Origin: Kaistella montana
Lineage (GTDB): Bacteria; Bacteroidota; Bacteroidia; Flavobacteriales; Weeksellaceae
Assembly: GCF_024436175.1 (NCBI RefSeq)
Contig: NZ_JANFQP010000002.1
Span: forward strand, 124,001-188,000
DNA length: 64,000 nt
Direction: 5' to 3'
Shown here: piece after piece, positions 19,892 to 54,462 of the stretch
Numbering within the stretch: the stretch's first letter is position 1
Layout: the number at the start of each line of letters is the position of its first letter
Position numbers and translations under genes: made by a program
Notes under the pieces: model-generated
Databases searched by the model: none
Seen by the model: the letters and a program-made list of their open reading frames with translations, nothing else
Told to the model about the DNA's origin: nothing

Positions 19892-20248
19892 ATGACAGCC
19901 AAAAAACCCATCAGCAATCCTGAAAATTATTTAAAAGACATCCGTCGCAAAACCAGAAGGATTTTCACGGCGGAACAAAAGATCCTCATTGTGATGGAAG
20001 CCCTTCGGGCAGAAACTTCCATTGCCGAACTCTGCCGCAAGCACGCTATTCAGGAATCTACCTTCTACAAATGGAACAAAGAATTCATTGAAGCTGGTAA
20101 AAAACAACTCTCGGGAGATACTGTTCGCCAAGCAACCGCCGAAGAAGTCTCTCAGCTTCGGGAAGAGAATCGCAAGCTTAAAGAAACGGTTGCCGACCTT
20201 GTCATCCGCTACGACATCGTAAAAAAAAGTTTGGAAATTCTGGAATAA
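19892..20248 (+). CDS. IS3-family transposase OrfA (helix-turn-helix subunit)
   Basis: 118 residues with the HTH_8-type fold of IS3/IS911 OrfA (FTAEQKILIVMEAL, IAELCRKHAIQESTFYKWNK) followed by a C-terminal leucine-zipper-like coiled coil (VSQLREENRKLKETVADLV). Near its end lies a run of eight A followed by G (20221-20229), a canonical -1 slippery site. The -1 frame is open from there through OrfB, so an OrfAB fusion transposase is expected as well as OrfA. Confidence 0.93.
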   Translation: MTAKKPISNPENYLKDIRRKTRRIFTAEQKILIVMEALRAETSIAELCRKHAIQESTFYKWNKEFIEAGKKQLSGDTVRQATAEEVSQLREENRKLKETVADLVIRYDIVKKSLEILE

Positions 20249-20268
20249 CCGAAAAATACAGAAAGTAT

Positions 20269-21252
20269 ATGAGGTTGTTACCTGAAGAAAAACTGGAAAT
20301 CATCCAAATGGTTACCCGTAGTGAAATCGGTGTCAACAGGACACTCAGGGAACTTGGCATTCACAAAAGCACCTTCTACAAGTGGTATAATCTGTACCTT
20401 GAGAAAGGTGAAGCGGGATTTCATTCTTCCCCTTCTTCTGGCAGAAGGCAGTGGAACAGCATTCCTGAAGAAGAGAAAAATCTGGTGGTAGAAATCGCTT
20501 TGAATTATCCTGAACTCTCCAGCAGAGAACTGGCTCATAAAATCACCGATGAGAAGGGCGTATTTATATCAGAATCCAGTGTTTACCGTATTTTAAAGAA
20601 AAGAGGACTGATAACGGCTCCATCACACATCCTGATTTCTGCCTCGAATGAATTTAAAGATAAAACCAATTTTGTTCACGAAATGTGGCAGACGGATTTT
20701 ACTTACTTTAAAATTCTGGGTTGGGGCTGGTACTATCTAAGCACCGTGATTGACGATTTTAGCCGCTATATCGTTCATTGGGAGTTGTGCCGAAATATGA
20801 AGGTGAATGATGTTCAAAGAACCATTGACCGAGCTGTGAAGAAAGCAGGTTTAAGAAAAGGGCAAGTTCCGAAACTTTTGTCGGACAACGGTTCTTGCTA
20901 TATTACCGAGGAATTAAAGGAGTATTTACACGATAATCACGGCATGAAGCAAATCCACGGAAAGCCCGCTCATCCACAGACGCAAGGCAAGATTGAACGC
21001 TACCACAGGACGATGAAAAATGTGGTGAAACTGCATCATTATTGCAGTCCAGAGGAATTGAAATCGGCTTTGGAAGTATTTGTAAACCGCTATAAAAATG
21101 AGCGTTATCACGAATCTTTGAAGAATCTCACTCCAGCGGATGTGTACTTTGGAAGAGCCGATGAAGTGTTGAAAATAAGACAGCAGATAAAATCTGAAAC
21201 TCTAAAAAGAAGAAAAAAGGAATATTACAAAAGAAAATTAATCGAAACCTAA
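20269..21252 (+). CDS. IS3-family transposase OrfB (DDE integrase core)
   Basis: 327 residues. An HTH region (TLRELGIHKSTFYKWYNLYL) is followed by an rve integrase core with the DDE triad in context: WQTDFTYFK (first Asp), SDNGSCY (second Asp) and KIERYHRT (Glu), ending in the conserved LTPADVYFGRA. It catalyses DNA cleavage and strand transfer of the IS. The -1 frame upstream of the ATG has no stop back to the A8G slippery run at 20221, so the main active form is probably the frameshift fusion. The gene looks intact. Confidence 0.95.
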   Translation: MRLLPEEKLEIIQMVTRSEIGVNRTLRELGIHKSTFYKWYNLYLEKGEAGFHSSPSSGRRQWNSIPEEEKNLVVEIALNYPELSSRELAHKITDEKGVFISESSVYRILKKRGLITAPSHILISASNEFKDKTNFVHEMWQTDFTYFKILGWGWYYLSTVIDDFSRYIVHWELCRNMKVNDVQRTIDRAVKKAGLRKGQVPKLLSDNGSCYITEELKEYLHDNHGMKQIHGKPAHPQTQGKIERYHRTMKNVVKLHHYCSPEELKSALEVFVNRYKNERYHESLKNLTPADVYFGRADEVLKIRQQIKSETLKRRKKEYYKRKLIET

Positions 21253-22040: not shown

Positions 22041-22132
22041 TGTCTTGGTACTATTGCAGGTAACACTCAAATACATGTAATTCATTTGAGAGGTGCTTTA
22101 AACAGGGCTTAATAGTAGATTTATTGGCGGCT

Positions 22133-22157
22133 AAGTACAACATAAGTACAACAAATT
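22133..22157. repeat. Candidate attachment site, left (attL-like)
   Basis: AAGTACAACATAAGTACAAC followed by AAATT. It matches 53998-54023 in the same orientation, with one base missing and two or three mismatches. It consists of two AGTACAACA units 11 bp apart and touches the stop codon of the thermonuclease gene. Confidence 0.5.
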
Positions 22158-22713
22158 AAAAATGTTCTATAAAACTGTAAATAACTTTCTTTTGCTTTTG
22201 GGCTTGGAAACAAATATACTGAAAATAAGGTAATTGAGCGCAAAAATATGAATTTGCTGCTTTTGCCCATCCGTTTAGTAATATTAGTTCATTCAGACAT
22301 TCGCCGGAAGGCAGAATAACATACGCCAGATCCCTTAGCCAAAAATCTGTGCGGTTCTTTGGTTCGGTGAGCAAGGTGATTCGTGTGCCTGGCGGACATA
22401 CATTCAAAACATAGTCCAGGGATTGCAGTCCGAGGTTTTGCAGTATGGAGGCAGGCGCACCGCTTTTCGCTTCATCCTCGCGCATCTTTCTTGATAAATG
22501 AACTTCCGGTGCATCCAAACCATAAAGTCTTATTTCACGCCTTTGCTGTGTGAATTCCTGTTTCACTTTTAAACTGTCTCCGTCCAAGACTTCTTCCACA
22601 ATCCAAAATGGCTGGACATGGATGTTTTTAATCTGAAAATATTTTGCGGACGGATTTCCTGTTGTGCTGCCTTCCATTTCGTTAAGGCTTACACTAATTG
22701 CATTGTATTTCAT
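22156..22713 (-). CDS. Thermonuclease (SNase)-family nuclease
   Basis: 185 residues with the staphylococcal-nuclease fold signatures: VLDGDSLKV (42-50, Asp ligand), IRLYGLDAPEV with Arg62, Asp67 and Glu70 matching the SNase catalytic Arg/Asp/Glu, and LRDLAYVILPSGECLNELIL with the second Arg. There is no signal peptide, so it appears intracellular, unusual for a secreted-nuclease family but common on mobile elements. It is the first gene inside the left boundary repeat and is divergent from the 22822 gene. A role in element biology or defence is inference. Confidence 0.85.
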   Translation of the reverse strand: MKYNAISVSLNEMEGSTTGNPSAKYFQIKNIHVQPFWIVEEVLDGDSLKVKQEFTQQRREIRLYGLDAPEVHLSRKMREDEAKSGAPASILQNLGLQSLDYVLNVCPPGTRITLLTEPKNRTDFWLRDLAYVILPSGECLNELILLNGWAKAANSYFCAQLPYFQYICFQAQKQKKVIYSFIEHF

Positions 22714-22821: not shown

Positions 22822-23625
22822 ATGGCAAGACAAAAAGGCCTTATGAAATACGTCGGAACAATCGGTGACGTTAGGCATTTTAAAATCAAAGGTCAGGAAG
22901 GATTTTTCGCCGGTATGGTCGGCGGTCCAACTGCACAGCAGGTGCACTCTGCACCGGAGTTCGAAAGAACACGCGAAAATATGAACGAATTTGGCGGTTG
23001 CGCCAAGGTCGGTAAATCGTTAAGAACGGCTCTCTCCGCTCTTATGGGAAAATTTACGGATCCACAGGTAACCGGTCGTTTAACTTCTATCATGAAGAAA
23101 ATCAATCTGGAGGACGGTACCGAAGCCAGAGGTTACCGAAAAGTTGAAGTGTCCACTCAGAGGAATTATCTGCTTGGATTTGAATTCAACAAAAACCTTT
23201 CTATCTCCGGTATTTTTAATGCTCCTTACGACATCGAGCCGGATGCAGGAAGAACTTCTTCAGATTTTATCGTTGCAGCTTTTAATCCTGCTGATCTGAT
23301 TACTGCTCCGTCAGGTGCAACTCATTTCAGACTGATTAACGCGATTTCGGTTCTTTCTGATTTTTCTTACAATCCGACCACAGGAACATACGAACCTGAT
23401 GACATGGTGAACAATGAGCTGACCAACATCGCTTATTCGCCGTACATTCCGTTGGATGTTCCTTATGCAGGTGATACCATTACAGCAACATTTCCGGGTG
23501 CTCCTGTTTTGGACAATAAAGTTTCGGTGGTTCAGTGTATCGGAATTGAGTTTTTCCAGGAAGTCAACGGAAACCACTATCCGTTCGCGAGTGGAAACTG
23601 TCTCAAAATCGAGGAAGTTTTTTAG
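22822..23625 (+). CDS. Phage-like protein of unknown function, possible structural protein
   Basis: 267 residues that I do not recognise as a named family. The N-terminus MARQKGLMKYVGTIGDVRHF is basic. Next comes a helical region (residues 50-95), and the C-terminal 160 residues look beta-sandwich-like (ISVLSDFSYNPTTGTY, DVPYAGDTITATFPG). No signal peptide, membrane segment or catalytic motif is visible. It has its own strong terminator 17 bp after the stop, so it is expressed apart from the genes that follow. That layout suits an abundant structural protein. It sits directly upstream of a DUF5675 gene and two small membrane-protein genes, a layout reminiscent of phage structural and lysis genes. 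Confidence 0.55.
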   Translation: MARQKGLMKYVGTIGDVRHFKIKGQEGFFAGMVGGPTAQQVHSAPEFERTRENMNEFGGCAKVGKSLRTALSALMGKFTDPQVTGRLTSIMKKINLEDGTEARGYRKVEVSTQRNYLLGFEFNKNLSISGIFNAPYDIEPDAGRTSSDFIVAAFNPADLITAPSGATHFRLINAISVLSDFSYNPTTGTYEPDDMVNNELTNIAYSPYIPLDVPYAGDTITATFPGAPVLDNKVSVVQCIGIEFFQEVNGNHYPFASGNCLKIEEVF

Positions 23626-23641
23626 GAAAACAACTTCTAAG

Positions 23642-23669
23642 GCCTTCCCAAACCGGGAAGGCTTTTTTG
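23642..23669 (+). terminator. Strong terminator after the 267-residue gene
   Basis: GCCTTCCC / GGGAAGGC stem with a 5-nt loop followed by TTTTTTGTTT, 17 bp after the stop codon. It isolates the 22822 gene from the downstream DUF5675 operon, or attenuates read-through into it. Confidence 0.85.
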
Positions 23670-23693
23670 TTTAATCTCCAAATCTTACAAAAA

Positions 23694-24146
23694 ATGAAAG
23701 CAAAAATAATCAGGGTTGCACAGGGCAAAAACTCTACGCTTTCCCATCTCTACATTGACGGCATTTTTCAGTGCTTTCTGCTTGAAGATAAAATCAGAGC
23801 CGTTAAGATAATGAAGCAAACTGCCATTCCGGAAGGTGTTTTTAAACTCCGTCTTAATACCTGGGGAGGAATGAACAAGACCTATTTTCCGAAATATGGA
23901 CCAATCCATAAAGGAATGATTGAAATTGCCGATCTTCCAACATTCAGCTCGGTTTACATTCACGTTGGAAATACGATTGAACATACGGCAGGATGTCCGC
24001 TTGTCGGACTTTCCTATATCAGGAAGGACGGCGATTATCAGGTTCTGCAGAGCGTGGACGCTTACAAACAGGTTTACAGAAAACTGTATGAAGTGGCAAC
24101 CGAAAAGGATAATCAGATTGAAATCAGTAACAATTTTCAATTCTAA
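23694..24146 (+). CDS. DUF5675-family protein
   Basis: 150 residues from the ATG at 23694; the frame is open 9 codons further upstream but would start inside the terminator. The sequence matches my memory of DUF5675: STLSHLYIDGIFQCFLLED near residue 16, IPEGVFKLRLN near 42, and YIHVGNTIEHTAGCPLVG near 90 with a conserved His and Cys. The H...C arrangement recalls L,D-transpeptidase/YkuD-like folds, and family members are frequent in phages, so a peptidoglycan-active lysis role is plausible but not proven. It is followed 3 bp later by a small membrane-protein gene. Confidence 0.65.
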   Translation: MKAKIIRVAQGKNSTLSHLYIDGIFQCFLLEDKIRAVKIMKQTAIPEGVFKLRLNTWGGMNKTYFPKYGPIHKGMIEIADLPTFSSVYIHVGNTIEHTAGCPLVGLSYIRKDGDYQVLQSVDAYKQVYRKLYEVATEKDNQIEISNNFQF

Positions 24147-24149
24147 AAA

Positions 24150-24422
24150 ATGGCACTAATGGAAAATGAAATCACAGTGAGCGTGTTCTTTGGTTTTATC
24201 AGTAGTGTTCTTTTGGCGGTAGTCGCATACTTTATACGGCAACTGCACACCGACTTTAAAAGTATGGAAAAGGATATGTCGGAAGTCAAGACAATGGCAC
24301 TGGTCATCAAAACCGAGTTTAAGAACAGTTACGATCTTCTCAATCAGAAGGTTGAATATTTGGAACAAAGAATCAATAAAATCGAGTTGAATCAAATTAA
24401 AAATCAAGACAATGAAAAATAG
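24150..24422 (+). CDS. Small membrane protein with coiled coil (holin-like position)
   Basis: 90 residues. One N-terminal transmembrane segment (VSVFFGFISSVLLAVVAYFI, residues 10-29) is followed by a charged coiled coil (MEKDMSEVKTM, LNQKVEYLEQRINKIE). It starts 3 bp after the DUF5675 gene and overlaps the next gene by 11 bp. The architecture resembles small phage holin- or spanin-associated proteins, but single-pass coiled-coil proteins have many roles. Confidence 0.6.
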   Translation: MALMENEITVSVFFGFISSVLLAVVAYFIRQLHTDFKSMEKDMSEVKTMALVIKTEFKNSYDLLNQKVEYLEQRINKIELNQIKNQDNEK

Positions 24423-24708
24423 AAATTTAAACTTAGTGGATCGCGTATTGGAACCAACGCCAAAATGGTTCAGAATTGTTAGAAATCTTGGACTGGCTTT
24501 ATCAGCAGTTGGCGGTGTTCTTGTGGCTGCTCCGGTGGCTCTTCCTGCAGCAGTCGTTTCCGTCGGTGGGTATTTGCTTCTGAGCGGAACGATTATTGGC
24601 GCGGTTAGTCAGACAGCAATAAGCCAGGAAGAATATGGCGACAGAAACTGGAAATCCCGGGAAAATTCATCGGAAAATTCACCAGGTGAGTCAGGAAATC
24701 AGCCATAG
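24412..24708 (+). CDS. Small membrane protein with two hydrophobic segments
   Basis: 98 residues. After a basic/aromatic N-terminus (PKWFRIVRN) come two adjacent Gly/Ala-rich hydrophobic segments (about 26-46 and 48-68; LALSAVGGVLVAAPVALPA, VGGYLLLSGTIIGAVS), then a hydrophilic Ser/Asn/Glu tail. It overlaps the previous gene by 11 bp and is followed by a terminator, so it is the last gene of the cassette. A membrane-permeabilising role is inferred from the context. Confidence 0.6.
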   Translation: MKNRNLNLVDRVLEPTPKWFRIVRNLGLALSAVGGVLVAAPVALPAAVVSVGGYLLLSGTIIGAVSQTAISQEEYGDRNWKSRENSSENSPGESGNQP

Positions 24709-24966: not shown

Positions 24967-25392
24967 TTACATTGTTAAATAATACCTGCGAACTAACGAA
25001 TGCCGCAGTTCCTGAATGGCTTTGGACTGCTCTTGGATCTTCTGCTCCAGTTCCCAGGTGGATTTGATTTTGTTAACCATTTCCGGGTTTCTAGTTGCTT
25101 TTTCAATGCCGGGTTGAATCCATTGCAAAAGCAGTTTTTTCAAGTCTGAAAGGCGAAGCATTTCAATGACTGAGCCGCAAAGGTGCGGGTGAAAGAAACC
25201 GTTTTTCCAGAGGGCGTAAAAGGTCCAGTAAACGGTTTCAATTTCTTCGGGACTGCTGCAATAAAAAATAAAGCAGTTCGGGCAGGGTTCAAACATTGGT
25301 TTTCCTGCGTTTCTCCCTCTTGAAAGGATGTAAAGAGCCGTTTTCGGGGCTGGACTGTGAACTGAGTAAGTGCGTACTTTGTGTTGAAGCAT
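24967..25392 (-). CDS. Mobile-element-associated protein, possibly DUF6943
   Basis: 141 residues. A beta/loop N-terminal region contains a conserved-looking block FEPCPNCFIFYCSS (CxxC near residues 37-40) and LYILSRGRNAGKP. An aromatic-rich segment (YWTFYALWKNGFF) and a C-terminal coiled coil (WELEQKIQEQSKAIQELRHS) follow. It resembles a small protein common on flavobacterial genomic islands that I recall as DUF6943, but I hold that name loosely. It has its own terminator, and its 5' side faces the long structured non-coding region. Confidence 0.6.
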   Translation of the reverse strand: MLQHKVRTYSVHSPAPKTALYILSRGRNAGKPMFEPCPNCFIFYCSSPEEIETVYWTFYALWKNGFFHPHLCGSVIEMLRLSDLKKLLLQWIQPGIEKATRNPEMVNKIKSTWELEQKIQEQSKAIQELRHSLVRRYYLTM

Positions 25393-25432
25393 AATTTTGG
25401 TTTAAAAAATTTTGCTCCGCGAAAAATTTTTC

Positions 25433-25625
25433 AAAAGAAAAAAAAGAAAAAAAAGAAAGTGCTCCACCCTCGTGGAAGGAAAATGCGATGCAATATTTTT
25501 TTGCAAAAAGTATTGCCGTATTTTATTTCACGGAAATAGTTTTTGCAAAAAACCGTTTACGGCTTGATATTGTCAGCACATTTTCCTGACAACAGAACTT
25601 TACTTTCTTTTTTTTTATTTTTTCT
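25433..25625. repeat. Nested inverted-repeat block with two TTTTTGCAAAAA palindromes
   Basis: Outer arms: A-rich AAAAAAAAGAAAGT ending at 25460 and T-rich ACTTTCTTTTTTTTT from 25602. Middle arms: AGGAAAATG (25477-25485) and CATTTTCCT (25579-25587). Inside are two identical 12-bp palindromes TTTTTGCAAAAA at 25498-25509 and 25540-25551, 42 bp apart, about four helical turns. This suggests a cruciform or multi-site protein-binding region. Confidence 0.65.
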
Positions 25626-26375
25626 TGGTGCCTGATCCTCGATTGAGGCGCAATCAAGGCTGTGGGAAGAATGGGAAAAGACAGGTGCATAGTGCTGTGA
25701 ATACTTGGAACAGTGCTATGCTCCTGTGCGCGGTGACGGAAGTGTATAGACGCCTGGAATGAAACGGCCCATCAAGTCCGCGAAGGGAAAGGCGGCTATA
25801 GACTGGAGGAACTTGGGAAGGTGTTGGCAAAACGGGGAAAAACACTCGCAGGAAAATGGTGCTTTACATCAGAGGCAAGATACGAGAACCGAAACTCAAG
25901 ACGGAATGGTAACAAGCGGCTGCAAAGACTGTGGTATGGAATGCTGAAAGAAAATGCTTTGCTTGGGAATTTTCAGCACGCGCCACAAACACAATACAAA
26001 CCTTTGCCTATGAAACCAAAGTGTTTTTGGTGTGTGATGAAAATAATGGAATGGAAAAAGCAATTTTGCGAATGACCTTGTTTATTCTTTTTAATGGAAT
26101 TCGCGAAATGCTAATGCATTTTCTTCAGTATGGAATACGACTGTGCGCGGTGACGAAAGCGACTGTATTGCCACTAAACTTTTCCGCTAAAAAAAAGCAA
26201 TACAGTGGCTGAAGGAACTGGCTAAATCCCCAAACTCTCTGCACCATTTTTCTGCATCCTTGAATGGGTGGCGGGGATAATGTAGGTTTTCGATTGGGAA
26301 ACTGCCCGTGTAAATTATAACTGCACTGGCGGCTGGAAGGCGGTGGCTCCTGAGGGCTTGCCCGAAGGAAAGGAA

Positions 26376-26501
26376 AGCATTTTACATAATCTCAAATTAT
26401 AGGCACATATGATGCTGGTTTGCACGTAAGGGAGCCTGCGGACTGGAGGGCAACGTTGTAGCGGTTGGCAAGTGCGTATAATTTCGATTATGTAACTTGC
26501 T
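26376..26501. repeat. 31-bp imperfect inverted repeat around a 65-bp centre
   Basis: Left arm 26376-26406 (core ACATAATC...AAATTATAGGCAC) and right arm 26472-26501 (GTGCGTATAATTTCGATTAT), mutually reverse-complementary with a few mismatches and one bulge. It lies 30 bp downstream of the PIN gene. It could be a large hairpin terminator, a small RNA or a miniature-element relic. Confidence 0.55.
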
Positions 26502-26531
26502 GTGGCAGAGCGGGGATAATTGATAACAATT

Positions 26532-29403: not shown

Positions 29404-32301
29404 TTACGCTCCCTCCACCAAAGCAATTTCCTCGTCGGTAAGGTTGTAGAGTTGGTAAACGGTTTTATTAATTCGATTATCTAAAGACTGAATAAGGTTT
29501 CGGTAGAAATTTCTATCATGGTCTGAAACGGCTTTTTGCTCATCTTTTTTGGCTTGAAGCATTTGCTCTACCAATTTTACCAAAGCGTCGTGGAGCGGTT
29601 GGTTTTCGGGCGTGATTTTGGGGATGGGTAGTTGTTCTACGTGTGTTTTCTTAACCTGCGCCAAAACTTCACCCTTTTCGGGATTTAATTGCTGATAATA
29701 AAAATCAGTAAGTTTTGAATTTAAATTTCCTAAAACAAAATTTCCATTAATATACTGAGGAATTACAATATTAAGATTATCACGTGCTATTATATTTCTA
29801 CCAATAATTGTCGCAATGATTCTGTCTGCAGTTTGACGAATAATGATTTTTTCTTCGGCTTGGAAAATTTCCGGTTTTCTAGGTTCTGCCAACCATTCAC
29901 CATATTGTATCCAACTGTTTTCATTCCAAAAATTAACATATTTGTTCATTAAACTTCCGCGAAGTAAAGGCAACCAATTTTCACCTTCCGGTTTATGCTG
30001 ATTTTCTTTTACAAAAGGTTTTTCATCAACAATTTCACGAGTTTGTTTTGGAACACCTTTGCCAACTTGAAAAGGTTTCACACCAACTGTCGAAATAGAA
30101 CATTCTTTCAAAAAGATAGAATTTGCCAAAATTTTCTTATACAACTGCGTTTCTTCCGGTCTTGCCAAAACATTGACGATTTCACCATTTTTTTCAAAAG
30201 CATTTTGGTCTAATTGCTGATAAGGAATTGCTTTTTCATCTTGCACCAAATCCACATCAAAGTAGTTTTCTTTTCCTGCATTTCCATTCTCAAAAATAAT
30301 GACGTGTGTATCTACAACAGCATCGAAAATATGTTTTTTACTATGCAGAATTTTTTTCCAACTATAAGCATTTAGTAGATGTTTTCTAATATTGGTAAAC
30401 GTAACACTCTGCAACCAAGTATTAGGGATAATTACGCCTAACAAACCTGTTTTGTTCAGCAAATGGTGGTAGCGTTCCAAAAACAATAAATACAAATCAT
30501 ACTGATAGTTTTGGTGCTGATAATTCTGCTGAAAAAACTTCAAAATAAACTTATCTAAAACTTTCACATACGGTGGATTTCCCACAATCGCATCAAAACC
30601 GGATTGCTTCGTTCCTCGTGCAGATGAAAACACCATTGGAAATGCCTGTTCAAAATCGAACGGGTTGAGTTTGCGCATTTCTTCTTTTCCAAACTCCAAA
30701 ACGCCGTCCATAATTTCGTAACCAATCAGCGAGTTTCCACATTTGATATTTCCGGATAAATCGGGCAGAATTTTTTCGGCAAACAACACATTCATATCAT
30801 TTGCCGTTGCCATTGTTTCATCTTCCAACAATTTCAGAAACAGGGAAACCTGCGATACTTCGGTTGCCTGCAAATCGATATCTACCCCAAAAACATTATC
30901 GAGCAAAATCTGCTGTTTCTGCCTGATGCTCAATACCCAAATCTGGTTTTCGGTATCGAATATACAACCGTCCTTTTTGGCGTCGTCGGAGTTTTGGTTG
31001 TAATATTTTTTATAATAATCCAACAAAAAATCATACACACCAATGAGGAAGGAACCGCTACCGCAGGCAATATCCGCAAATTTCAGTTTGGCGATTTCCT
31101 TTGGCTTTTTGTCGGCTATTTTTTTGCCAACGGTATTTTCTACGATATAATCTACAATGTATTTCGGCGTATAAAACACACCGCCTGCTTTACGCACTTC
31201 GGGTTTCAGTTCTATGCGCGCCTTACCGTCTTCCACCACAATAATCTTCCCTAAAAATCTTTCGTAAATATTCCCAAGAATGTGGATGGGAATGTAATTG
31301 AAATCGTAAGGTGTATTGGTATGGTCAAGATCCTGCGCTATGTTTTTGAAGAGTTCTTCGTTGGCACCGAGGAAAGCGTTTTTATCGATAAAATGTTCCT
31401 TAAAAACCACTCCGTTGTATTTGGCATCCAACCTTTTGGACAGTTCTATAAACTTGCGCCAAGGATGTTCGGAAGTTGAAATGCCATGCATTAAATCTTC
31501 GGGTTCAATCTGCTTGTCTTCGAGGAAACGGATAAACACCAAACGGTCTATGGTTCTTTGTGTGGCTTCAGTAAGGTCGTAATGGTCGAGCGTAGGATTG
31601 TTTTGATAAAATGCCTGTGCCATTTGCAGACGGATATCGTCGATATAATCGAGGAAACTGTCGTCGATACTTTGGTAGCGTCCTCCGAAAAGTTTGAGTT
31701 GTTTTGCCTTTCCTTTTGGCTGCGGAAGATTTTCGACAAATTTGGTAAGATTGCCTGCGTCGACGGCTTCGCGGGAAAAGAGCCAATAGAATTCTGAAAA
31801 CTTCTCCTCGTCCAACAAATCCAAATATTTGTAGTATTTGATTTCATTGGAAAGAATGGTATCAAAATCGGGTTTAAACCGACAGTCAATCAAAACAATT
31901 TCCTCAAAATCAGTAAGTATTGAGATACCAGTTTGCGAGTTCCATCCATATTTTGCCGTTTGAAAATAATCGTCACGGTTTTGTCTTAAAGTACGGGATG
32001 GTTTTTTGGCTTCCACAAAGAACTGCACTTTTTTGAAATCTGGAGCGAGATAAAACGCATAATCTGCGCGTTTCTGCGCCTGATGTCCTTCCTGCCTTTG
32101 CGGCTTTTCCACCTTAACTTCCTGCTCGAAAGGGTTTTTCTGAATGTCATGCAGAACATCCCAGTCTAAAGCCATAAACAGTTTATCGATAAAATCCTGA
32201 CGAACACGGGCTTCCACATAAGACGGCGAAAGATAATGCGCTTCATTGGCTTTGAAAGTTTCAATGAGTTCTCTTGTTTTAAGATAGGCGTTTTGGAGCA
32301 T
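29404..32301 (-). CDS. Type IIG-like (Eco57I/TaqI-type) restriction-modification enzyme
   Basis: About 965 residues from the ATG at 32301, which gives the family-like N-terminus MLQNAYLKTRELIETF. In order: a PD-(D/E)xK nuclease domain (RADYAFYLAPDF...VEAKKPSRT, near residues 78-104), an adenine methyltransferase with SAM motif I FADIACGSGSFLIG and catalytic NPPY in DAIVGNPPYVKVLD, and a C-terminal TaqI-like target-recognition domain (LNSKLTDFYYQQLNPEKGE). One polypeptide would therefore methylate and cleave. It is the first gene of the five-gene minus-strand operon. The recognition sequence cannot be told from this. Confidence 0.9.
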   Translation of the reverse strand: MLQNAYLKTRELIETFKANEAHYLSPSYVEARVRQDFIDKLFMALDWDVLHDIQKNPFEQEVKVEKPQRQEGHQAQKRADYAFYLAPDFKKVQFFVEAKKPSRTLRQNRDDYFQTAKYGWNSQTGISILTDFEEIVLIDCRFKPDFDTILSNEIKYYKYLDLLDEEKFSEFYWLFSREAVDAGNLTKFVENLPQPKGKAKQLKLFGGRYQSIDDSFLDYIDDIRLQMAQAFYQNNPTLDHYDLTEATQRTIDRLVFIRFLEDKQIEPEDLMHGISTSEHPWRKFIELSKRLDAKYNGVVFKEHFIDKNAFLGANEELFKNIAQDLDHTNTPYDFNYIPIHILGNIYERFLGKIIVVEDGKARIELKPEVRKAGGVFYTPKYIVDYIVENTVGKKIADKKPKEIAKLKFADIACGSGSFLIGVYDFLLDYYKKYYNQNSDDAKKDGCIFDTENQIWVLSIRQKQQILLDNVFGVDIDLQATEVSQVSLFLKLLEDETMATANDMNVLFAEKILPDLSGNIKCGNSLIGYEIMDGVLEFGKEEMRKLNPFDFEQAFPMVFSSARGTKQSGFDAIVGNPPYVKVLDKFILKFFQQNYQHQNYQYDLYLLFLERYHHLLNKTGLLGVIIPNTWLQSVTFTNIRKHLLNAYSWKKILHSKKHIFDAVVDTHVIIFENGNAGKENYFDVDLVQDEKAIPYQQLDQNAFEKNGEIVNVLARPEETQLYKKILANSIFLKECSISTVGVKPFQVGKGVPKQTREIVDEKPFVKENQHKPEGENWLPLLRGSLMNKYVNFWNENSWIQYGEWLAEPRKPEIFQAEEKIIIRQTADRIIATIIGRNIIARDNLNIVIPQYINGNFVLGNLNSKLTDFYYQQLNPEKGEVLAQVKKTHVEQLPIPKITPENQPLHDALVKLVEQMLQAKKDEQKAVSDHDRNFYRNLIQSLDNRINKTVYQLYNLTDEEIALVEGA

Positions 32302-32732
32302 ATAGTTTTTATGGTTAAAAAAAGGATAATGCAATTTACAGAAAAGCAATGAAGTAAAAAAAAAGTAAGTAAAGTAAGTAAGTTTAGAAACAAAAACTTT
32401 TTATAAAAAATGACTGCGAAAAAAACTATTTAAAACAATGAAGAAAAGCGAAAAATAAGGAAGTGCTAAGCGCCGTTTGCGCTGAAAGTTTCTGTTTCAG
32501 CATTTTTTTTCTGAGAGAAAAAATAAAAATTTTGTTTTGGCGAACTTTGGTTACTTTACTTACTTTGAGGAAATGTCAGTTTCTTATCTCAATTAAAATA
32601 GGTGATACGCAACAAATAAAACCAACTTTCTAACAGACAAAAGTGATGTTATTTACCTTTGTGGTTATTCGGAATATGAAATATTTTTTGTAAATTCAGA
32701 ATTCGTACAGATTTCAAATTCAACTTAGCAAA
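32302..32732. promoter_or_regulatory. Divergent intergenic region between the defence operon and the two-component system
   Basis: Contains a perfect 16-bp inverted repeat: AAAGTAAGTAAAGTAA at 32362-32377 and its reverse complement at 32551-32566, 173 bp apart. Between them is a hairpin, GCTGAAA / TTTCAGC, followed by eight T (32481-32509), which would terminate plus-strand transcription. The two inverted arms may be operator sites or ends of a small inserted unit. Confidence 0.5.
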
Positions 32733-48873: not shown

Positions 48874-51054
48874 TTACGATTTAAAGCGGAACGGAATTTC
48901 CTGCTGCACAGCACATACCTTCTTAACCTCTGAACCCTCTTTATTTTTAGCATCTACTATTTCTGGTTCCAAAAAATTAACTGCGTACACATAGGAGTTA
49001 TTTTTCATCACCCGGTTGTAACCATGTTTTCGTAACGCTTTTCCCAATTTGTTTACAGAAGCATCCGATATATTTAGATTTGCCCGGCTTGTTATCATTT
49101 GCAGAATTTGTGTGGTGTTTAAAAAGTACTGGGCGGTTTCTTTTTCTGCACTTTCAAACCAAGTTAAAAGCAATTCCTCTTCCGGACTTCTTAACTGATA
49201 CTGTTCGTTGTTGGCGTTAATCTCTTTGATTTCTTCCTGATTGAACCAATGGCGGAATTCTGATTTGTAGAGTGATACTGCCTGAGCATACACTTTGTTG
49301 ATATCAATATTATGGGTGTATTCGATATTTTCTACTTCGAAGCAAAGGAAACGGCGTGAGCCGGTTGTATCATTTAAAAATTGGGCGGTGTTTACAGAAC
49401 CTGCGAATGATGCACGTCTTGGCATATTTTCATTGTTGTGTCCGTAGGCTTTTCGCATTCTGATGTGGGTTTTAGTGATGATTTCTTTAAGGGAACCTAT
49501 TTCAGTTTTATTTAAGTTTTCCAATTCGTCCAAATTGATTAACATACATTCTGCTAAGTGAATTAAAGTGTCTTTATTGCTTGGGTTTATAGTCCCGGAA
49601 AAGATATATTCTTTCAAAGGTTTAGGCATCAGTTTTTCTATCCACGTTGTTTTTCCTAAACCTTGCTTTCCACTAAAAACAATTACTGTTTGATTGACTT
49701 GCTTTTCATCGAGTACACAAGCCACCATAGCCACAAACCATTTTTTGAAACACACTCTCCATAAATCTTGTTTTGTGGTGGTTATAGTATCTGCAAGCAG
49801 TTCTATATAGTCGGTTTCATCAGTGTTTGCCTGCAGATTGTTGAAATAATCTTCAAACGGATCGTACATTTCGCAGTAGTCGGAATGCAGGAGATTCCGT
49901 AAGGAATTGATGCTGCATTTCACTTTGGCTTTTAAGATTTCGCGAAGGATTGAGTTTTCGGTGAAGTCGGTCATTGGTTTGTATTTGTATGCTTTTAACG
50001 TTTTAAATTCTAATTTCCCTAAAACAGTGTTGTAACGAAAGTTGTAACGGTTGTTGAGAAACATTTCCAGTTTGTCAATGTAGGACGGTTGTTCTTCATC
50101 GTCATCAGAGAAATTTCCGTCTTCGGTTTTTGTCGCGAACGGTTCACCGGAATTTTTTCTATTACTCGTCAATCGATCGGATTTCGCAGATTTTTTTGTT
50201 GGTGTAAAAGTATCTGTGTTATGTTCTGCGGTGTTTTGGTAGGCACTCTGGACTGCTGTTGTAACTTCTCTTGCATCATAGCCATAATCCGCTAAAATAT
50301 AGCCCAATGCCATTGCTTCCGAAATTCCTTTACGGTTCAGATTGTTGGCTAAAGCAAAAACGAAGTTATTACGGTTGCCTTCAGTGAACTGGATTTTCTT
50401 TTCGGTGAAGCGGACAGCATGCTCATACAAAACATCATAATCCGCTTGCGGATTATTTTGATGTTTTGAGATTCCTCGCTTTTGCGCGGAATGACAATCT
50501 TCTATTTTCGGATTATCAGCAAAGATTTCGGAATTTTCGTTCAGGTATAATTCGGGATCAAAGGACATAAAGCAAAGTCTTGTAATGTCTTTTCCTGATT
50601 TATCGATTTCTACCTCCAATAATTCTTCGAAATATCGCTGTAATTCCAAGAAGGTTTCTTTGTGCTGTTCTTTATCCGTCGAAACTTTCACGAAAATTTT
50701 CAGTCCATTTCCTGAAGGACTTACGAATGAAGCAAATACAAAATCATCCATTCTTATTTTAGTCCTGCATTGCTGGAGTTTTTCTTTTTCGAGTTTGTCT
50801 ATATCCAATACCATTAATCCGTTGTAATTGGTAAGGAATTCCATTTTTCTGCCGCCGTTAAATGTTGCACTGGGCGTAAATGCCGGAAGGGATTTTTTTG
50901 CTCTTTCTGCGGCTTCTTTCTTGTCGTCGGCAAGAGATTTTCTTAAATAAGTGATAGCGTTTTGATATACTCCGGTTTTAATATCGGAAAGGATTTTCAG
51001 AATATCTTTTTGTTCGGTTACTTCGTTGAAGTTTTTAAATATGGTGGATTTCAT
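48874..51054 (-). CDS. VirE/BT4734-type primase-helicase of a mobile element
   Basis: 726 residues. The N-terminal region (1-200) matches the BT4734/BF3469 (VirE N) fold with primase-like NYNGLMVLDIDKLEKEK and FASFVSPSGNGLKIFVKV. The middle has a PriCT-like helical part. The C-terminal VapE/VirE helicase has the Walker A loop FSGKQGLGKTTWIEKLM and the following MLINLDELENLNKTEIGSLK. Such proteins initiate replication of Bacteroidetes mobile elements. It lies between the cargo and the excisionase-like/integrase genes, part of the element's core. Confidence 0.88.
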   Translation of the reverse strand: MKSTIFKNFNEVTEQKDILKILSDIKTGVYQNAITYLRKSLADDKKEAAERAKKSLPAFTPSATFNGGRKMEFLTNYNGLMVLDIDKLEKEKLQQCRTKIRMDDFVFASFVSPSGNGLKIFVKVSTDKEQHKETFLELQRYFEELLEVEIDKSGKDITRLCFMSFDPELYLNENSEIFADNPKIEDCHSAQKRGISKHQNNPQADYDVLYEHAVRFTEKKIQFTEGNRNNFVFALANNLNRKGISEAMALGYILADYGYDAREVTTAVQSAYQNTAEHNTDTFTPTKKSAKSDRLTSNRKNSGEPFATKTEDGNFSDDDEEQPSYIDKLEMFLNNRYNFRYNTVLGKLEFKTLKAYKYKPMTDFTENSILREILKAKVKCSINSLRNLLHSDYCEMYDPFEDYFNNLQANTDETDYIELLADTITTTKQDLWRVCFKKWFVAMVACVLDEKQVNQTVIVFSGKQGLGKTTWIEKLMPKPLKEYIFSGTINPSNKDTLIHLAECMLINLDELENLNKTEIGSLKEIITKTHIRMRKAYGHNNENMPRRASFAGSVNTAQFLNDTTGSRRFLCFEVENIEYTHNIDINKVYAQAVSLYKSEFRHWFNQEEIKEINANNEQYQLRSPEEELLLTWFESAEKETAQYFLNTTQILQMITSRANLNISDASVNKLGKALRKHGYNRVMKNNSYVYAVNFLEPEIVDAKNKEGSEVKKVCAVQQEIPFRFKS

Positions 51055-51148: not shown

Positions 51149-51430
51149 TCACTTTTTCGCGAAAGACTTGTTGTAGTGATCCTGCATGGTCTTTTCAACA
51201 TCAGACAGTTTGTAGTAGATTTTACTGCCTACCTGGGAAAAAGAAATCTTCCCTTCATCGCGCCAGGTCTGTGCTGTTCTGCGTGAGATTTTCAGCATTG
51301 CGATTAATTCTTCATTGTCCAGGAATACTTCCTGTTTTGCTGCTGTCTTAGCGTTAAGTTTTTCGTGAATCTCATTAATTTTTGAGATTAGACCATCAAA
51401 TTGCTCTTTTGATAAAATAATTGCTTCCAT
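51149..51430 (-). CDS. Excisionase-like helix-turn-helix protein (HTH_17)
   Basis: 93 residues from the ATG at 51430, chosen over one 10 codons upstream because MEAIILSKEQFDGL is the family-like start. A MerR/Xis-type winged HTH (NEELIAMLKISRRTAQTWRD, then GKISFSQVGSKIYYKLSDVE) occupies residues 35-80. In Bacteroidetes islands this gene nearly always neighbours the VirE-type primase and integrase and controls excision or replication. Confidence 0.9.
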   Translation of the reverse strand: MEAIILSKEQFDGLISKINEIHEKLNAKTAAKQEVFLDNEELIAMLKISRRTAQTWRDEGKISFSQVGSKIYYKLSDVEKTMQDHYNKSFAKK

Positions 51431-51519
51431 AATATTTTTGGGTTTAAGATTATGAAGCAAAGTTGTGGGAAAGAAAAAAGTCCGGAAGTCCCGAAATGGT
51501 CTCGCCGGGACTATTCTTT

Positions 51520-52428
51520 TTACAACAGTTTATCTAAGTCTATGCGTTTGTGAGAGTTAGGTCGTTTATCATTTTTTGAAGGGCGCAAAATAGTTTCAAC
51601 TGTAGCGGGACTTAATGAAAGTCCCGCTCGATCTTCAAATGAATTTACGATAACCGCAACAATATCCTGCACTGAACCGTCAATAAAAGGCTTTCCATCC
51701 TCAAACATCTCACGATTCAACTGGAAAAACACATCAACAATCTGATTTACATTGCAGTTGATCCTTAGTTTGGAATATGGCAATAAACCTTCCGGGGTGG
51801 AAGGCAGAGCATTCTGCATTTCTGCTTTTGCTTTGGCATAACTTTGAAGTTTTCCAATGAGTTTCTGGCATTCCTGTTCAAAGTCCGGCAATTTGTTATT
51901 TATCAATTCCAGTTCTGCTGTACTGTATTCAAAAATTTCGGTTGTGAGAAAGAACACCTTTTCCTGTATCGTAGGGAGTGAATGGCATTTTAATTTCGAT
52001 TCCTTAAAACTGAAATATCTTTCCTCTGACTGTGCGTTTATTTCTCTTGCCGGTGGTCTCTTAGTTTTTTCTTTTGATTTTTCAATTTTGAGTTCCTGCC
52101 TTTACAGTTCAATGCAGGTCTGAAATTTCATCAGTTTAGAATCACGCTTTGCCTCATGGAAGATTTCCTCATTCTCGGAAATGAGCTTCTCAAACTTGTT
52201 GAGCCAAAACATGGGATCTTTGACCAGGCTACAATGGTGGTTCAGAAAGTCGGGAATGTTGGAATTGTTTTGGTTGAAGGCCTTTGTGAAGAGTGCCTGG
52301 CAGTATGTTTCGAGGGTTTCCTCCGGGATTTTTTCAATATCAAATAAGGCGTTGAACGCGTCCGTAACCTTTACAGACGAAAATTGCACGAAGGGTGCAG
52401 TTTCCTTTATGAGATACCTGGAAGCCAT
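51520..52428 (-). pseudogene. RteC-like mobile-element gene split by an in-frame TAA
   Basis: One reading frame runs from the ATG at 52428 to the stop at 51520, broken only by a TAA at 52102-52104. The 108-residue N-terminal part and about 193 codons after the stop read as one protein of about 302 residues. The C-terminal part (YSKLRINCNVNQIVDVFFQL...KNDKRPNSHKRIDL) resembles the RteC domain of Bacteroides conjugative-element regulators. A CAA-to-TAA change would explain the stop. The family assignment is moderate; the frame continuity is direct observation. Confidence 0.7.
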
Positions 52429-52677: not shown

Positions 52678-53895
52678 TTAAATTACAAACTGATCGACCG
52701 CTTTTGAAAGTTCTTCATTTACGATTTTGGCATAAATCTGCGTGGTGGAAATATCTTTATGATCTAAAAGTTTTGAAACGTGCTCAATCCTCATGCCCTT
52801 ATTTAAAGCCATTGTGGCAAATGTATGACGGCTTAAATGGAAATGGAGTGTAAAGGGGAATTCCAAATCCTTACCTAATTTACGGAGATAGACATTGCAC
52901 AGTCCGTTTTGGTTTGAAACAGCTCTTCTCCTTCCTTCTGCATCAATCGAAAAATAATTTTTTTCCGTAATTGCAGGAAAAAGAAATTCCCCCAGATTGT
53001 CGGGATGGTTTCTGTATTTTTTGATGATTTTCTGCGCGGTTTCGCCAATTTTGAAATGGTGTACACGCCCGGTTTTTTCGACCTCTTTACGAATCATGTG
53101 TGTTTCTGGATCGTATTCATATACCGTAAGCGTTACAACATCTGAAAATCTTAAACCTCCCGCAGAAACCGAAAACATAAACAGGTCCCGGTATAGTTCT
53201 GCCTTAGACCGTCCTTCAAACTTATGCTTCTTTAGTTTTTCAAACTGCTCTTCTGTCAAGAAGTTTCTTTTGCTGGGTTCCGTCTCCAACTTGAGTTTCT
53301 TGAATGGATACAAGCTTTCATCAATGATTTCCTCTTCCTGGGCGTGCTTGAACATCATAGAAAGAACAATCATACTTAACTTTTGGGAAGTCTTATTGTT
53401 TTTCAGAACATTTCCGGCATACAGCATATAGTCTTTTAGAAGGCCAACTGTAATATCATCAAACATAATACTGTCGTCATTGACGAAGCTTTTGAATTTT
53501 TTTAGTTGCGATGCGTAAACTTTGTAAGTTTGCGGAGAGTAGATGTGTTCCAGCTTTTTCAGCTTTTTCTCGGAATATTCAAAGAATTTTACATGGTCTT
53601 TTCCCTTGATGGCTTCCTTTAATTTTCTGGCAGTAACAGATTTTGATTTTCTTTCGGAATCGGCAATAGTTGCTGAAGCTTCGGCAAGTTTTGCCATAAG
53701 CATCGCATTCATCCGGGCACTGTTGGGGAAACTCTTGCGGACTTTCTTATTGTCGTCATCCCATTGGGACGGGTGAACCTTTAGGCCGGTGCTGATAAAC
53801 TTTGACTGTCGGTCATGAATAAGCCGGATGTAAAGCGGGCATTTGCCTTCCTTATCAGGCTGCTGCGTTCTGAGGATAAATTTCACTGAGGCCAT
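52678..53895 (-). CDS. Tyrosine recombinase / site-specific integrase
   Basis: 405 residues from the ATG at 53895 (MASVKFILRT), with a Bacteroidetes-type N-terminal arm-binding domain, a SAM-like core-binding domain (about 105-200) and a C-terminal catalytic domain. Catalytic residues are visible: Arg in AGGLRFSDVVTL, the HxxR in HLSRHTFATMALNKG, His in LLDHKDISTTQ and the Tyr nucleophile in IYAKI. It would integrate and excise the element. Its upstream region carries several GTACAAC motifs and the right boundary repeat. Confidence 0.95.
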   Translation of the reverse strand: MASVKFILRTQQPDKEGKCPLYIRLIHDRQSKFISTGLKVHPSQWDDDNKKVRKSFPNSARMNAMLMAKLAEASATIADSERKSKSVTARKLKEAIKGKDHVKFFEYSEKKLKKLEHIYSPQTYKVYASQLKKFKSFVNDDSIMFDDITVGLLKDYMLYAGNVLKNNKTSQKLSMIVLSMMFKHAQEEEIIDESLYPFKKLKLETEPSKRNFLTEEQFEKLKKHKFEGRSKAELYRDLFMFSVSAGGLRFSDVVTLTVYEYDPETHMIRKEVEKTGRVHHFKIGETAQKIIKKYRNHPDNLGEFLFPAITEKNYFSIDAEGRRRAVSNQNGLCNVYLRKLGKDLEFPFTLHFHLSRHTFATMALNKGMRIEHVSKLLDHKDISTTQIYAKIVNEELSKAVDQFVI

Positions 53896-53994
53896 AAGCA
53901 AAATATATTTTCGATGTTGTACTAAAAATTCTGTTTTTTGAAAAGGAACGCAAACCGCTGAAATACTGTATATTCAAATGGATGCAACCTGATA

Positions 53995-54021
53995 CAAAGG
54001 TACAACATTTAGTACAACAAA
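53995..54021 (-). promoter_or_regulatory. Possible integrase promoter overlapping the boundary repeat
   Basis: Minus-strand TACCTTTG (53995-54002) fits the TAnnTTTG -7 element, with TTTG at 54018-54021 upstream. The 15-nt spacing is shorter than usual. If real, integration would regenerate or alter the integrase promoter. Confidence 0.35.
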
Positions 54022-54023: not shown

Positions 54024-54462
54024 CTATTTTCCGTTGCTTTTTTATGCTTTTAATTTAACAGTTAAAAAACAAATGTAGCCTATTAATAGGCATTTAGAAG
54101 TATTTTGAAACATTGATTTGAATATATCGTACAACACATAAATTTACGTATCTTTTCGAAAAGACAAAGTTTTTATTACAAAAAACGCATAAAAAAACGA
54201 AACATTTTGGTGCAGTTCAACCTATCTGAAAATCCCACAAAACTCTTTTGAACATTTTTCAAAACCACACAATATATTCATCCAACTTGGCAATTCCATT
54301 GCGTAATTCTCATTTATTCGTGAATATTTTAAATTATTCGTAATGAAAGTTTGATAAGGCTACCTTATACAAACCTTATACCTACTCTTATTATTGAATT
54401 CAAAATAAAAGCACTACATTTTTTGAAATATGAAAATACAATCGGATTACGACTAGTGTTTC

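Follow-up and report, generated by a model that had tools for sequence, protein, structure and literature searches.

Two kinds of described elements come closest to the locus reported here. The NBU elements of Bacteroides combine an Arm-DNA-bind_5/SAM_5-type integrase with a primase and an HTH protein, and carry a mob gene. Phage satellites of the PICI and P4-like types typically measure 7–20 kb (PMC13376191), and P4-like satellites carry defence hotspots with variable anti-phage cargo (PMC9122126). In the literature that we searched, we found neither descriptions of islands of the kind presented below nor of phage satellites in Bacteroidota.

The window analysed here is a 64,000-nucleotide stretch of Kaistella montana DNA in which the initial annotation had placed a phage-like cassette of four genes at 22822–24708; all four predicted ORFs are indeed present there, on the forward strand (Table 1). 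They code for a protein that we term MARQ, a DUF5675 protein, whose ORF starts at 23694 (the previously given start at 23667 being an alternative TTG), and two small membrane proteins, m1 and m2. Among the best 80 named homologous loci, MARQ, DUF5675, m1 and m2 occur in the same order and on the same strand within 2.5 kb in 68, and all six genes, if those for an SNase-like nuclease (seen in 69) and a DUF6943 protein (seen in 58) on either side are counted in, are present in 40, with contig ends lowering all of these counts. m2 is kept in all 68 complete cassettes. Given that order and strand are retained in this fashion, the four-gene arrangement is, judged by comparison of the loci, not a product of chance, and the survey for the same genes in order that had been proposed as a check turned out in its favor. 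By the same comparison, the earlier coordinates are too narrow: the SNase-like and DUF6943 genes bracket the conserved four-gene set. The strong terminator that had been ascribed to the first gene is likewise recovered as an 11-bp stem followed by a T run, and when we folded 18 further copies of the locus, most showed a hairpin with a diverged stem 3′ of MARQ. Since the hairpin is kept though its stem sequence has changed, a separate MARQ transcript appears to be a conserved property of these loci.

Table 1. Features of the island and its two ends in the window (positions are those of the window)
Feature	Position	Strand	Description
Left (MARQ-side) island end, att core TAACACTCAAATACATG	22061–22077		Sharp TAAC-core boundary across many loci
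Paired direct repeat TACAACATAAGTACAAC	22136–22152	+	Probable integrase arm-type site; found on the MARQ side of most islands
SNase-like nuclease gene	22156–22713	-	185 aa; PF00565, E 1.8e-4, over cut-off
MARQ gene	22822–23625	+	267 aa; no named family; name taken from first residues
Intrinsic terminator of MARQ gene	23639–23671	+	11-bp stem at 23639–23665 plus T run
DUF5675 gene	23694–24146	+	150 aa; probable peptidoglycan-active enzyme; PF18925
m1 gene	24150–24422	+	90 aa; one N-terminal TM segment, then charged tail (hydropathy)
m2 gene	24412–24708	+	98 aa; TM hairpin, holin-sized (hydropathy)
DUF6943 gene	24967–25392	-	141 aa; PF22105, E 1e-45
Conserved non-coding block	25400–26530		Probable cis-acting region; right-hand conserved block in all close copies
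Variable cargo	26532–48870		PIN protein, DUF6414 protein, type IIG restriction-modification enzyme (29404–32349), other genes
BT4734/VapE-like primase-helicase gene	48874–51054	-	726 aa; PF05272, E 1e-43; PF08800, E 9e-38
HTH_17 gene	51149–51460	-	Probable excisionase/regulator; PF12728, E 2.4e-10
Two ORFs (51520–51957 and 52102–52428)	51520–52428	-	Single ~297-aa ORF in most relatives
Tyrosine integrase gene	52678–53901	-	407 aa; PF17293, PF13102, PF00589
Second paired direct repeat TACAACATTTAGTACAAC	54001–54018	+	Probable integrase arm-type site; near integrase
Probable right island end, diverged att core AACACATAAATTTACGTA	54133–54150		Tentative; weak match; position relative to integrase as in sister island G000b

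From the genes that accompany it, the four-gene set almost certainly constitutes one end of a tyrosine-integrase island of ~32 kb (window ~22.06–54.15 kb), in which the integrase lies 30 kb from the MARQ module, a link that the initial annotation had not made. In the genome G032, two 20,130-bp segments that are 99.9% identical each run from an integrase end to a MARQ end in the following order: tyrosine integrase, VapE-like primase, type II CBASS, DUF6943, m2, m1, DUF5675, MARQ and SNase. An independent 4.4-kb cassette (22.13–26.53 kb), which DNA alignments had suggested, was discarded because this duplication proved to be 20 kb long and to include the integrase. Further islands that we examined display the same layout, with the primase and HTH_17 genes beside the integrase in most, the exceptions being G162, without a detected primase, and G411, where the available stretch ends before the integrase. 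In the sample of genomes from the family, MARQ and a related integrase on the same contig and within 60 kb of each other face one another in 28 of 28 co-located pairs, with spans of 16–44 kb that mostly exceed 20 kb. Automated scoring returned 27 of these 28 as convergent, since the tandem islands of G162 led the script to pick the neighbor’s integrase in place of its own (C1:1205944); several unpaired MARQ genes are near contig ends or in small contigs. The cargo between the two ends differs from island to island, featuring, for example, a type II CBASS system in G032 and type ISP restriction-modification and GmrSD systems in G000b. At the integrase end, the primase homologue of G026 matches phage primase/helicase families in PHROGs, and the core gene corresponding to the two ORFs at 51520–52428, for which Pfam offers no family, is probably broken in the window island.

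The left ends of these islands show a sharp TAAC-core boundary with unrelated sequence outside, and five relatives (G000b, G026, G021, G032 and G162) have direct repeats of 12–25 bp, one copy lying at the MARQ end and its partner past the integrase; in the window island the right att partner has diverged and gives only a weak match. Moreover, a paired repeat of the form TACAAC-N(5-6)-TACAAC lies near the SNase stop codon and ~100 bp upstream of the integrase start (at 22136 and 54001 in the window) and was present in each of the eight islands checked, at a single end or at both, with 0.045 expected per shuffled 32-kb element. These repeats are probable arm-type sites of the integrase. The islands sit in more than one kind of attachment site: their ends adjoin a tRNA gene in L125 and L130, whereas in G032, G021 and G162 a dispersed inverted repeat of ~200 bp provides the site, with its end as the point of attachment. 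In these three genomes (in G032 at L049, 11550–17060), such imperfect inverted repeats, which resemble integron attC (GCTAACG..TTGGCG...GTGCGGG / CCCGC..TTTGCCAATACAATGTTAGC), also separate the small single genes of arrays. An integron-like cassette with attC ends was considered and rejected, as the integrase belongs to the island type and the above tRNA genes adjoin other copies; hence, we read the attC-like repeat as an attachment site.

The genes ruvA and maeB are adjacent in 14 of 19 relatives and separated by 43.7 kb in the window (10793–54518), and this gap is an insertion hotspot. As it also holds 11 kb of other accessory DNA (10.8–22.1 kb) and a transposase pair at 19892–21252, the relatives show an empty locus at the level of genes and not a base-exact site; a search for a base-level empty site of the window island found none, its flanks being themselves accessory. 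Next to the module, pieces of the non-coding block recur at other MARQ copies of the same genome; an Rfam search of the block gave nothing over the gathering score, and it is perhaps a replication origin or packaging region. It also contains a dif-like motif (GTGCGTATAATTTCGATTATGTAACTT, about 26470–26500). A dif/Xer site as the right end of the module was rejected, as the true second end lies at the integrase.

Among plasmid records, MARQ occurs in just one, the circular p1 of Marivirga sp. BKB1-2 (25,320 bp; L224, NZ_CP129969.1), which belongs to a distant branch with a MARQ that is 31% identical. In it, a MARQ-type module (MARQ, DUF5675 and m2) and a tyrosine integrase are placed back to back and divergently, and the stretch between them holds two paired arm-like repeats (TGTCCA type, with 0.008 expected), which are 192 bp apart and have no further copy in p1. 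No VapE homologue was detected in p1. Since the module and the integrase would come to stand back to back if an island closed on itself end to end, p1 looks like a circularized island of this distant MARQ branch, and it offers the best evidence that such islands may exist as circles. At the level of sequence, comparison establishes the architecture of the island, both of its ends and the repeats of its recombination sites, together with its occurrence in multiple copies and the existence of a circular replicon built alike.

MARQ is widespread in its lineage. The K. montana genome itself has four copies and a fifth, diverged one that was recovered by profile search; a match is present in 110 of 197 genomes sampled from the family, and 497 pattern-confirmed loci were found among 84,980 species genomes. 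The named hosts are Bacteroidota (Kaistella, Chryseobacterium, Empedobacter, Flavobacterium and Lutibacter), and the hosts known from MAGs are labelled Chitinophagaceae, Saprospiraceae, Cytophagales and Sphingobacteriales. Four genomes (G060, G161, G142 and G177; L210–L213) bear single-copy, short MARQ relatives of ~211 aa in a conserved chromosomal neighborhood without DUF5675, which are possibly a domesticated version. Between the window and G027, which belong to different genera, MARQ is 99% identical whereas SNase and m1 of the same pair stand at 76–78%, and this difference points to recent exchange combined with strong constraint on MARQ.

The initial annotation had noted that no capsid, terminase or tail gene is nearby, and had offered two interpretations: that the cassette is what is left of a small unknown phage, or that it is a secretion/lysis device which has been domesticated. 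The observation is sound. Neither the window island nor the listed relatives show any apparent capsid, portal, terminase or tail gene, and Pfam and PHROGs scans of selected island proteins from the window and its relatives, covering part of the cargo, returned no capsid, terminase, tail, portal or relaxase families. Neither interpretation has held up: the set is intact, present in multiple copies and across the 110 genomes of the family mentioned above, and forms the end module of an integrase-carrying island. A related proposal, namely that the locus is a remnant or minimal form of a small virus of an unknown type with MARQ as its capsid protein, would account for the strong, conserved terminator and separate transcript, the lysis-like genes and the very high conservation of MARQ. 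We hold it to be highly improbable, as MARQ is conserved as part of a 16–44 kb island and has neither a viral fold match nor a phage record. MARQ is absent from 50,697 phage records, and its only match in the virus collections is a single IMG/VR contig (L034). As the initial annotation had it, this 267-residue protein is without a family: scans of Pfam, NCBIfam and PHROGs with the window protein were empty, and it matches no known enzyme. Its profile has no match among PDB sequences, and of 42 members compared with PHROGs, three match one unknown family, weakly.

The AF2 model of MARQ is confident (pLDDT 91.6, pTM 0.80), with the N-terminal half predicted as helical and the C-terminal one (about residues 130–267) as rich in beta structure. 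A search for capsid, jelly-roll or tube folds, which the initial annotation had recommended, found nothing at E ≤ 0.001 in the PDB or among viral models (BFVD). A second look returned resemblances at Z < 5 to C2-like and glycoside-hydrolase sandwiches, and the best-ranked hits of these fold searches include weak beta-sandwich resemblances only, with no capsid-type match of the jelly-roll or HK97 kind. The N-terminal 115 residues carry a net charge of +8 and the remainder −13, a split that is compatible with, though not evidence for, binding of nucleic acids or other polyanions. Another Bacteroidota family, DUF6266 (PF19781), is encoded near MARQ-type genes in G279 and G271, and directly adjoining them in L220 (9017–9676), L225 and L235. 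Its N-terminal motif looks similar to that of MARQ, but the comparison of profiles shows no demonstrable homology (hhalign probability 0.5%), and we rejected a common origin as unsupported. As a separate observation, the L034 contig has the genes for SNase, MARQ and DUF6943 without DUF5675, ~3 kb from ORFs that by eye resemble Mu-like head genes; no VapE homologue was found in it.

The DUF5675 protein is a clear member of its family (PF18925, E 4e-30, 104.4 bits versus a cut-off of 26.7) and also matches phrog_1501 (E 1e-19); H90 and G100-C101, which could supply the His/Cys active site of a putative L,D-transpeptidase-like fold, are invariant in 16 module copies. Its predicted structure is poor, with confidence too low for a fold search. 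Homologues are found in 163 phage records, and several of these bear the annotation name of an L,D-carboxypeptidase/transpeptidase or of a peptidoglycan hydrolase; the homologue in a Thiohalocapsa phage has neighbors at less than 1 kb whose annotations read Rz-like spanin and hemolysin. The phage proteins, including those of crAss-like phages, belong to the same Pfam family as the island copy, but they are only about 24–37% identical to it, and the island copy is embedded in a non-viral island together with MARQ. Family scans gave weak, non-significant matches of m1 to XhlA and an Rz-like spanin, and neither m1 nor m2 has a homologue in the phage records at E 0.1. We found no literature on DUF6943, and DUF5675 figures only in two vibriophage papers. 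Since a TM-plus-charged-tail protein and a TM hairpin follow a DUF5675 protein with homologues in phages, the three genes are reasonably likely to be a lysis module, in keeping with the lysis-like layout that the initial annotation had recognized.

Such a set could also be deployed in immunity: DUF5675, m1 and m2 would lyse or stop a cell upon infection, MARQ or SNase would be the sensor or an effector, and kin and the island would thereby be protected. This anti-phage suicide module would easily explain a lysis set without a capsid, and the set does adjoin other defence systems in a mobile island. However, the module holds a near-fixed place by the recombination site at the island end and is constant whatever the cargo, which suggests a core function; hence, we regard a role in suicide as rather improbable.

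The reading that we favor, to which we would give an even chance as a whole, is that the island is satellite-like and bears a lysis-like module at one end. The SNase, MARQ-DUF5675-m1-m2 and DUF6943 genes together with the non-coding block form its conserved end, and the tyrosine integrase, HTH_17 protein and VapE-like primase the other, with variable cargo, often anti-phage systems, in between. Excision by the integrase would yield a circular form of the island for the primase to replicate, and the separate MARQ transcript would give rise to large amounts of the protein. DUF5675 might cleave or remodel peptidoglycan and m1 and m2 breach the membranes, so that the cell contents would be released upon activity of the island or of a helper phage. 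Given that the proteins scanned include no capsid, terminase or relaxase, transfer would most likely proceed via the machinery of another element, as in phage satellites. In this scheme MARQ might be an abundant accessory protein, possibly associated with particles, which is the least certain step. That the borrowed machinery belongs to a helper phage is suggested by analogy with phage satellites, and we put this forward tentatively, as a plausible proposal falling a little short of probable. We speak of satellite-like islands, and not of satellites, because they run to 16–44 kb from MARQ to integrase, mostly over 20 kb and thus beyond the typical satellite size, and because no helper is known. 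Also weighing against the favored reading are the lack of significant phage homologues of m1 and m2, the lack of a match between MARQ and any structural protein, the weak right att core and apparently broken core ORF of the window island, and the distance of the Marivirga branch, in whose circle VapE was not detected.

Alternatively, the machinery could be that of conjugation. Here the island would be an integrative mobilizable element of the NBU type, moved by another element, and the end module would have a function other than lysis, for instance in wall remodeling or entry exclusion. The Arm-DNA-bind_5/SAM_5-type integrase accompanied by a primase and an HTH protein, the richness of Bacteroidota in conjugative elements and the near absence of MARQ from virus collections all speak for it. 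Set against these are the Pfam scans of proteins from several islands, which revealed no relaxase where NBUs would have mob, and the typing of the Marivirga circle p1 as non-mobilizable; on balance, we see it as a somewhat unlikely contender. Returning to the satellite-like reading, its broadest form would have the islands constitute an undescribed, phylum-wide class of satellite-like elements of Bacteroidota that spreads together with a conserved end module of its own, with MARQ as a new protein associated with particles or acting in DNA packaging, and DUF5675, m1 and m2 as the lysis genes of the element itself; this we consider unlikely.

Whatever the mode of transfer, hundreds of Bacteroidota genomes carry relatives of MARQ, yet Pfam, NCBIfam and PHROGs hold no model for it. 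Because the islands that it marks include carriers of restriction and CBASS genes, MARQ provides a handle for finding mobile defence islands. Moreover, it poses a testable question: why does an island in which no capsid has been found keep a lysis-like set at its end?

With regard to known systems, the MARQ islands resemble the NBU-type elements of Bacteroides in the architecture of the integrase and in their primase and HTH genes, but differ in that no relaxase gene was found in them and in possessing the MARQ/lysis-like end module. With the P4-like and PICI satellites they share an integrase at one end, a small HTH protein, a phage-type primase, anti-phage cargo and the apparent lack of a capsid of their own. 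Unlike those satellites, they have no identified helper, cos/pac site or capsid-remodeling gene; they are also larger, have so far been seen only in Bacteroidota, and carry a lysis-like module alongside MARQ.
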